Source: Streptomyces sp. SAI-127
GTDB lineage: Bacteria; Actinomycetota; Actinomycetes; Streptomycetales; Streptomycetaceae
DNA: 64,000 nt
Assembly (NCBI RefSeq): GCF_029894425.1
Contig: NZ_JARXYJ010000001.1
Span: 5,890,001-5,954,000 of the forward strand
Direction of reading: 5' to 3'
In this document: one piece after another, positions 51,586 through 53,350 of the stretch
How the letters are laid out: the number at the start of each line of letters is the position of its first letter
How positions within the stretch are numbered: position 1 is the stretch's first letter
Made by a program: the position numbers and the translations under genes
The notes under the pieces: model-generated
Seen by the model: only the letters and a program-made list of their open reading frames with translations
What the model was told of the DNA's origin: nothing
Database searches by the model: none

Positions 51586-51643
51586 GACCAGCACAGTATC
51601 CGGCCCCGGAAACCCCCGGCGGCCGGGCCCGGGAAACGCCGAA

Positions 51644-51671
51644 GACCCCGCCGTCGTACGACGGCAGGGTC
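51644..51671 (-). terminator. Terminator of fmdB
   Basis: GACCC-C-GCCGTCGTACGACGGC-A-GGGTC, a palindrome with one mismatch, starts 13 bases past the fmdB stop and lies before the mtnP start. Confidence 0.7.
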
Positions 51672-51684
51672 CCGGAAGTGAGAC

Positions 51685-52014
51685 CTACGCGGCGGAGCTG
51701 CTGCTGGACGAGGAGCCCGAGCTCGACGACTTCGAGTCCGAGGAGGACGAGGAAGAAGACGAGGACGACTCGGACGACGACGAGGTGGACGTCGACGGCT
51801 TCGAGGACGACGACGCCGGGGAGCTGCTCGTCGAGGAGCCGCGGCTGTCGTTGCGGTAGAAGCCGGAGCCCTTGAAGACGATGCCGACCGCGGAGAACAC
51901 CTTCTTGAGGCGCCCCTGGCAGTTGGGGCACTCGGTCAGAGCGTCGTCGGTGAACTTCTGCACCGCCTCGAGGCCCTCGCCGCACTCGGTGCACTGGTAC
52001 TGGTAGGTGGGCAC
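51685..52014 (-). CDS. FmdB-type zinc-ribbon protein with poly-Ser tail
   Basis: 109 residues. The zinc-ribbon opens PTYQYQCTECGEGLEAVQKF with paired Cys (CTEC, then CPNC), the FmdB/CxxC-CxxC regulatory-protein pattern. A tail of about 50 residues is more than 70% Ser. GTG 52014 follows AGGAGG with six bases. A CIRCE-like element overlaps the leader (52025-52051). FmdB-type proteins are small regulators or scaffolds of unknown action. The heat-shock link is inferred. Confidence 0.87.
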   Translation of the reverse strand: MPTYQYQCTECGEGLEAVQKFTDDALTECPNCQGRLKKVFSAVGIVFKGSGFYRNDSRGSSTSSSPASSSSKPSTSTSSSSESSSSSSSSSSDSKSSSSGSSSSSSSAA

Positions 52015-52024
52015 TGTCTTCCTC

Positions 52025-52051
52025 CTGGCACTCTCACTCAATGAGTGCTAA
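52025..52051 (-). promoter_or_regulatory. CIRCE-like element (HrcA operator)
   Basis: On the minus strand TTAGCACTC-N9-GAGTGCCAG. The CIRCE consensus is TTAGCACTC-N9-GAGTGCTAA, so the left half is perfect and the right half matches seven of nine. It lies directly before the AGGAGG of fmdB. Confidence 0.8.
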
Positions 52052-52081
52052 CGATGGTCCATAGTGACGTATTCCCGGGGA

Positions 52082-53350
52082 TCAGTCCACTGCCACCGGC
52101 ACTCGGTGACCGACGCCACGTGCGACGGTCCGGCCGCGGGGCCGCGCCACGAGGTGTGAACGCAACGCCAGCAGAGTCGCCAGGGCGAGCAGAGTGCCCC
52201 CCATCGGCACCAGGAACCCGGCGCCGCCCCAGAAGCGGTCCTCCAGCTGCCCGGCGATCGTGACGGCGGCCGCCTGGCCGAGCGCCACCGCGCCGGTCAG
52301 CCAGGTGAAGGCCTCGGTGCGGGCGCCGGCCGGGACCAGGCTCTCGACCAGGGTGTAGCCGGTGATCAGGGCGGGCGCGATGCACATGCCGACCAGGAGG
52401 CCGAGGCCCGCCAGGACGAGCACCGAGTGCGCGGCCCACAGGCCGGAGGCCGTCAGCGCGAGGGCGCCGTATCCGATGATCAGGCGCCGCTGGGGGGCCA
52501 CCTTCCAGGCGAGGGCGCCGCAGACCAGGCCGGAGAGCATGTTGCCCGCGGCGAAGACGCCGTACAGGACACCGTTCAGGCCGGGTTCGCCGATCGACTC
52601 GCTGAACGCGGCCAGCGAGACCTGCATGCCGCCGAAGACGGAACCGATGCCCAGGAACGTCACGATCAGGACCCGCACCCCGGGGATGCGCAGCGCCGAG
52701 GCGTGCTCCACGCGTGCGTGCCCGTCGACGGCCGTGACCGACGGCTGCGTGCTCTTCTGTGCGGCGAACAGCAGGCCGCCGAGGAGTGTCAGGGACGCCT
52801 CGGTCAGCAGGCCCGCGGCCGGGTGCACGGCGGTGCACAGGGCGGTGGCGAGCAGCGGGCCGAAGACGAAGGTCAGCTCGTCCGTGACGGACTCGAAGGC
52901 CGCCGCCGTGGTCATCAGGGGCGAGCCCTGCAGCTTCACGCCCCAGCGGGCGCGCACCATGGGCCCGATCTGCGGCACCGAGGCACCCGTGGGCACGGCC
53001 GCCGCGAACAACGCCCACAGGGGCGCGTGCGCGAGGGCGAGGGCGGTCAGGGACAAGCCCGAAAGGGTGTGCACCAGCACGCCGGGGATCAGCACGGCGC
53101 GCTGGCCCCAGCGGTCCGCGAGACGGCCGCTGTAGGGCGCGAACAGCGCCATGGCGACACCGGTGACGGCCGCGACGGCGCCCGCCGCGCCGTACGAGCC
53201 GGTGGTGTGCTGCACGAGCAGCACGAGGGAAAGGGTGAGCATCGCGAACGGCTGGCGCGCGGCGAAGCCGGGGAGAAGGAACGTCCAGGCGCCGCGGGTA
53301 CGCAGCAGCTGCCCGTATCCGGGGCGGGAGGAGGTGACCGTGGATGCCAC
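52082..53350 (-). CDS. MFS transporter
   Basis: 422 residues with about 12 hydrophobic segments. SGRLADRWGQRAVLIPG stands at motif A. The GTG at 53350 is chosen because GAAAGG lies eight bases upstream. It is probably a small-molecule exporter (MFS_1). It follows the CIRCE/fmdB leader on the same strand with about 70 bp to fmdB's start, so coupling of expression is unlikely because they are separated by the fmdB promoter. The substrate is unknown. Confidence 0.83.
   Translation of the reverse strand: MASTVTSSRPGYGQLLRTRGAWTFLLPGFAARQPFAMLTLSLVLLVQHTTGSYGAAGAVAAVTGVAMALFAPYSGRLADRWGQRAVLIPGVLVHTLSGLSLTALALAHAPLWALFAAAVPTGASVPQIGPMVRARWGVKLQGSPLMTTAAAFESVTDELTFVFGPLLATALCTAVHPAAGLLTEASLTLLGGLLFAAQKSTQPSVTAVDGHARVEHASALRIPGVRVLIVTFLGIGSVFGGMQVSLAAFSESIGEPGLNGVLYGVFAAGNMLSGLVCGALAWKVAPQRRLIIGYGALALTASGLWAAHSVLVLAGLGLLVGMCIAPALITGYTLVESLVPAGARTEAFTWLTGAVALGQAAAVTIAGQLEDRFWGGAGFLVPMGGTLLALATLLALRSHLVARPRGRTVARGVGHRVPVAVD

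Follow-up and report, generated by a model that had tools for sequence, protein, structure and literature searches.

The CIRCE operator of the repressor HrcA is an inverted repeat with the consensus TTAGCACTC-N9-GAGTGCTAA, in which the two arms are set apart by a 9-base gap. In Mycobacterium tuberculosis, HrcA is reported to repress directly Rv0991c (Ruc) together with three genes of the Hsp60/Hsp10 family, SigH induces Rv0991c in heat, and the HrcA and SigH sites overlap upstream of its start codon (PMC7448276). The consensus given for M. tuberculosis SigH is GGAAYR-N17-18-GTT, and Rv0991c appears in a table of SigH-dependent genes with an entry of 40.3 ± 12.2 (PMC4803200). Ruc is described as a redox-activated chaperone, which in its oxidised form keeps proteins from aggregating and cooperates with DnaK (PMC7448276). 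According to the same paper, Hsp33 is missing from actinobacteria and Ruc is thought by its authors to stand in for it: both are expected to work alike, by a zinc-cysteine redox switch on a holdase, and they share no sequence similarity beyond the four zinc-binding cysteines. The word "Streptomyces" is absent from the main text of that paper, and the only HrcA targets named in the consulted sections of the Streptomyces coelicolor heat-shock/HspR paper were groES/EL1 and groEL2 (PMC2687793).

The locus described here belongs to a 64,000-nucleotide stretch of the Streptomyces sp. SAI-127 genome (contig NZ_JARXYJ010000001.1, positions 5,890,001 to 5,954,000), referred to below as the window, where a CIRCE-type site precedes a gene of the FmdB family. 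In our judgement the site is very probably a genuine operator of HrcA, and the gene behind it most likely the Streptomyces equivalent of ruc, predicted from the sequence and from the mycobacterial example to be under double control of HrcA and SigR. The features are the following, all on the minus strand:

51620..51684, minus strand: GC hairpin stretch 3' of the stop codon (MFE -33.2 kcal/mol, z -2.08)
51685..52014, minus strand: fmdB (ruc-like) gene of 109 aa with a GTG start, assigned by family matches, zinc ribbon and Ser-rich tail
52021..52026, minus strand: Shine-Dalgarno AGGAGG, invariant in 58/58 Streptomyces leaders and sharing two bases with the end of the operator
52025..52051, minus strand: CIRCE-type putative HrcA operator TTAGCACTC-N9-GAGTGCCAG, assigned by motif match and conservation
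52050..52052, minus strand: -10 element GTT of a putative SigR/SigH-type promoter, its last two bases being the first two of the operator
52061..52090, minus strand: possible second, housekeeping-type promoter GTGGAC-N18-CACTAT, a pattern chosen post hoc
52071..52075, minus strand: -35 element GGAAT of the putative SigR/SigH-type promoter, assigned by sequence match and conservation

Read from 52051 to 52025 on the minus strand, the operator is TTAGCACTC-ATTGAGTGA-GAGTGCCAG, and the leader runs as ...GTGGACTGATCCCCGGGAATACGTCACTATGGACCATCGTTAGCACTCATTGAGTGAGAGTGCCAGGAGGAAGACA-GTG. Two of the 18 arm positions deviate from the consensus, both in the terminal TAA of the downstream arm, which here reads CAG, the 9-base gap is exact, and the site ends 10 nt upstream of the GTG start. 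The sequence-only reading had quoted a CIRCE-like inverted repeat with exact spacing, and its letters were confirmed; the interval 52014-52051 that it had assigned to the operator holds for 52051-52025, the remainder being the leader down to the GTG at 52014. The TTG at 52041, which an open reading frame list gave as the start and which lies inside the operator, was rejected in favor of this GTG because of the AGGAGG before the latter and the MPTYxY beginning common to all ten aligned FmdB sequences, the window's included (the nine relatives being aligned by their first 20 residues only).

The protein matched the models Zn_ribbon_8 and CxxC_CxxC_SSSS (FmdB family) above their cut-offs and a third one, RPWMISH_prot, below its cut-off. 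Serine makes up 38 of the last 53 residues, so that the two family matches and the tail bear out the earlier call of a poly-Ser zinc-ribbon FmdB gene. The zinc-ribbon cysteines are Cys 8, 11, 29 and 32, the same four as in Ruc according to the mutagenesis primer names of the Ruc paper, from one of whose primers the MPTY beginning of Ruc, common with the Streptomyces protein, can also be read (PMC7448276). Overlapping sites for HrcA and for SigH/SigR are a further common trait, reported from experiments for Ruc (PMC7448276) and recognized by sequence alone in Streptomyces. The gene is present as a single copy in the genome (G000), and it is the domain, the cysteine positions, the control architecture and the single copy, taken together, on which the proposed orthology with Ruc is based. 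Membership in the FmdB family is in itself no proof of a chaperone function. A search of solved structures returned no chain matching the protein at E 0.1. Hsp33 had no match in the genome.

Downstream, the hairpin stretch at 51620..51684 was equalled in folding by 6 of 200 shuffles, and no T-run terminator was found after fmdB. The hairpin after the stop codon suggests a putative single-gene transcript, and the gene that follows belongs to a phosphorylase family (PNP_UDP_1); in M. tuberculosis, in contrast, rv0991c and rv0990c are reported to form an operon (PMC8557902).

The whole-genome search for further CIRCE sites (10,720,516 bases, 10.7 Mb), which the sequence-only reading had proposed as a check, gave five places at up to three mismatches: four at groE genes and the fifth at fmdB. 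The groES-groEL operon (L001) is preceded by two sites with 1 and 3 mismatches and the second groEL (L002) by two sites with 2 mismatches each, whose starts are 36 bases apart; family search verified the Cpn10 and Cpn60 identity of these genes. The groE sites thus have the motif and the 9-base gap in common with the fmdB site, at 1 to 3 mismatches, but occur in pairs, whereas fmdB has one; furthermore, unlike the groE sites, the one at fmdB is part of a SigR-type composite, found once in the genome at up to one mismatch. HrcA itself is encoded in the genome: a single hrcA match (201.5 bits) is followed by a dnaJ gene, both identified by family search, and no CIRCE site at up to three mismatches was present near hrcA in the genome scan.

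Within Streptomyces, fmdB was found in 58 of 61 genomes; of the three in which it was missed, two have a completeness of only 79 and 82%. Every one of the 58 leaders carries the operator with two mismatches and with identical arms, TTAGCACTC and GAGTGCCAG, which makes the two-mismatch form the usual one in this genus. The imperfection of the downstream arm, likewise present in all 58, may be explained by the overlap of its last two bases with the AGGAGG. The Streptomyces spacer also contains a second conserved GAGTG (GAGT at 0.95–0.97, the final G at 0.84), so that the CACTC of the upstream arm could pair with either copy; in other families, in contrast, the spacers are near random.

The class sample had an fmdB match in 186 of 197 genomes (170 after subtraction of 16 Streptomyces), and from the matches listed, which leave out the lowest-scoring ones, 94 non-Streptomyces leaders (14 loci and 80 stretches) were picked by hand to cover families and searched over a span of 220 nt. 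The operator was present at up to four mismatches in 84 of them (7 sites with one mismatch, 37 with two, 36 with three and 4 with four), spread over 27 of the 31 families examined besides that of Streptomyces, and in a control set of 3040 dinucleotide shuffles, made from all 152 leaders, no sequence reached this level. Four further class leaders had a site at up to three mismatches in each case. The arm positions of the 84 operators hold 0.8–2.0 bits and the spacer positions 0.1–0.8, and the distance from operator to start varies from -37 to -100 in 83 leaders, with -174 in one. This arm/spacer contrast and the variable distance agree better with an operator bound by a protein than with a constraint imposed by ribosome binding or by coding. 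In the leader with the longest distance (L110 of genome G190, family f18) the gap of 174 nt is filled, as judged by eye, with near-identical repeats of approximately 25 bases.

No site was found within 220 nt in the remaining 10 of the 94 class leaders (two from family f5, three from f26 and one each from f25, f32, f33, f38 and f39). All ten genomes have an hrcA match, partial in G233, and each contains at least one CIRCE site at up to two mismatches somewhere in the genome, although one site is also obtained with the reversed pattern in two of them (G064 and G185). The absence of the operator despite the hrcA match indicates that the link between HrcA and fmdB can be lost. Outside the class, where 40 leaders were read among 97 genomes with a match, the site occurred in four, all of them from family f48 (4/7; L262, L263, L264 and L267), and in none of the 33 leaders from other families. 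HrcA was found in 16 of the 18 out-of-class genomes without an fmdB site that were searched for it, so the lack of the operator is not simply a lack of the repressor. Among the named loci (the best 80 of 425, mostly Streptomyces), 77 had a site at up to three mismatches and L246, L251 and L254 had none at this threshold; those with a site included Kitasatospora, Micromonospora, Nonomuraea, Jiangella and one Acidimicrobiaceae assembly (L255). The latter operator and those of f48 hint that the trait either predates the class or was acquired on two occasions.

The placement of the operator in the fmdB leader, as originally proposed, was upheld; what that proposal left unmentioned is a promoter element of the oxidative-stress type, GGAAT-N18-GTT, which overlaps the operator by two bases and forms a composite with it. 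Set against the M. tuberculosis SigH consensus, the stretch 52075-52050 reads GGAATA-N17-GTT. With at most one mismatch allowed, the pattern GGAAT-N18-GTTAGCACTC was found in 56 of the 61 Streptomyces genomes, including the present one, with one extra one-mismatch match elsewhere in three genomes and no match to the reversed pattern in any of the 61. With the pattern relaxed to G[GT]AAT and an 18- or 19-base spacer, the promoter was fused to the full operator and the ribosome-binding site in 57 of 58 Streptomyces leaders. A sigma gene of the SigR/SigH type is present in the genome with 360.7 bits at a cut-off of 251.55. A second such gene over the cut-off (261.4 bits) is located on contig 3 (G000:C3:6098-6628).

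Beyond Streptomyces, an overlapping promoter of this type was seen in families f4 (4 of 7 leaders), f18 (4 of 7) and f17 (1 of 11), and in none of the 59 other leaders; GGAAT-N17-19-GTT was carried by 59 of the best 80 of 425 named loci. The four composite leaders of f4 all belong to genus g4, and in them the first base of the operator lies 3 positions downstream of the G of GTT, compared to 1 position in Streptomyces. The four g4 genomes contain 4, 83, 106 and 72 genes of the PE family and the other f4 genera 0 to 2, as counted by a search whose control list also matched in Escherichia coli. PE-family genes being a mark of mycobacteria, we take g4 to be apparently mycobacterial.

Three other explanations of the locus were weighed. 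A chance resemblance to CIRCE is hardly credible: the fmdB operator is the sole match in the window at up to three mismatches, and such matches do arise at random, in 1 of 100 shuffled windows (0.01 on average) and at one genomic place, counted once per strand, for the reversed pattern, but the presence of the site in 58/58 and 84/94 leaders speaks against coincidence. Conservation likewise makes it very unlikely that the palindrome is a feature of the leader RNA or of the ribosome-binding site, a hairpin or translational element with no part for HrcA. Such a role might be read from the downstream arm, which runs into the invariant AGGAGG, from the Streptomyces spacer GAGTG, which could pair with CACTC in RNA, and from the folding energies of -9.1 to -11.7 kcal/mol, raw values with no shuffle baseline, for the leader extended by 30 coding nt. 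However, in other families the same arms and 9-base gap recur at differing distances from the start and with near-random spacers, and elsewhere in the present genome the motif at up to three mismatches is confined to groE.

The remaining alternative, which we regard as improbable but as the most serious of the three, accepts the HrcA operator and denies that GGAAT-N18-GTT is a working SigR promoter, transcription being left to a housekeeping-type promoter, as may hold in other families. A match to TGGAC-N16-20-YANNAT abuts the operator in 29 of the 84 non-Streptomyces leaders and in 56 of the 58 from Streptomyces, compared to 3 of 7100 mononucleotide shuffles, a significance which is overstated because the pattern was chosen after viewing the sequences and because of the kind of shuffle used as control; moreover, one of the 58 Streptomyces leaders (G022) keeps the operator with no GGAAT. 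Against it, each base of GGAAT is 0.97–1.0 conserved in the 58 leaders, the spacing in the 57 composites is 18 apart from a single case of 19, and the SigH dependence of Rv0991c is reported in M. tuberculosis (PMC7448276, PMC4803200). The conservation of GTGGAC in Streptomyces is ambiguous as a promoter signal, since these bases also close the coding sequence of the MFS gene that lies upstream (GTG GAC TGA), and a standard sigma-70 scan gave nothing at 52061..52090. The reading as an HrcA operator is supported by its specificity in the genome, the presence of hrcA, the 58/58 and 84/94 leaders, the near-random spacers and the varying start distance.

If HrcA and SigR bind here as in M. tuberculosis, the promoter would work as a gate with two inputs. 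In unstressed cells, HrcA on 52051-52025 would keep fmdB low, since the bound repressor would mask two -10 bases, the presumed transcription start and the edge of the ribosome-binding site. HrcA is inactivated by GroEL overload, and SigR is released from its anti-sigma factor by thiol oxidation or heat; heat (or GroEL overload) would thus lift the repression, and oxidation or heat would supply the SigR that reads GGAAT-N18-GTT, with the strongest expression predicted when protein unfolding and oxidation coincide. By the same analogy the product would act as a chaperone, its zinc ribbon losing the zinc on oxidation and turning the protein into a holdase that passes clients to DnaK; a Ruc-type chaperone would be expected to have a hydrophilic C-terminal tail without fixed structure, and the Ser-rich tail is probably disordered. 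The HrcA regulon of Streptomyces would then extend beyond groE to a chaperone switched on by oxidation, in a genome where Hsp33 had no match, and the FmdB gene would become directly testable.

The idea of an HrcA operator on this gene gains from the present comparison, but the link as such is not new to biology, Rv0991c/Ruc being already a reported direct target of HrcA (PMC7448276). The newer part is the conservation across the class and the lineage-specific promoters. No paper joining HrcA, CIRCE and FmdB was found among openly licensed main texts (supplements excluded), and in the same kind of texts no description was found of the near-universality in the class, the fused SigR/HrcA element of Streptomyces or the half-site variant described below. 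Under SCO3187, the presumed locus tag of fmdB, openly licensed main texts gave no match. Binding, expression, heat or SigR data for the Streptomyces gene were not found in the literature consulted, including the sections consulted of PMC9205884, PMC3902916, PMC4921905 (searched by term) and PMC9739823.

The half-site variant concerns the upstream arm: 46 of the 84 non-Streptomyces fmdB operators (for example those of L065, L068, L069 and L100) have CAGTC in place of CACTC. An exact search for TTRGCAGTC-N9-GAGTGCYA gave 83 sites in 80 of 197 genomes, at least 66 of them no more than 250 nt away from the start of a listed fmdB. One more, in G062, is located 96–121 nt upstream of fmdB, where it is the downstream arm that has the variant, and among the remaining 16 at least one, in Streptomyces G115, is away from fmdB. 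CAGTC is thus an asymmetric operator variant that occurs mostly at fmdB.

Tentatively, and with less confidence than we place in the operator itself, a broader picture can be proposed, in which the HrcA control of ruc is ancestral and almost universal in the class and a fixed operator has been paired with differing promoters: housekeeping-type ones abutting it in many families and SigR/SigH-type ones fused to it in Streptomyces, the mycobacteria-like g4 and f18, giving a two-input gate for heat and oxidation. The CAGTC half-site, presumed to be weaker and specific for ruc, would tune ruc apart from groE. If true, this suggests that ATP-driven chaperonins and an oxidation-activated holdase have been coupled in the class since long ago, and that such coupling is no mycobacterial speciality.

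In one genome the variant also occurs in duplicate: the stretch G205:C145:10340-10399 contains two CAGTC-type sites with starts 34 bases apart, much like the pair at the second groEL (36 apart), on a different contig from the listed fmdB of G205.
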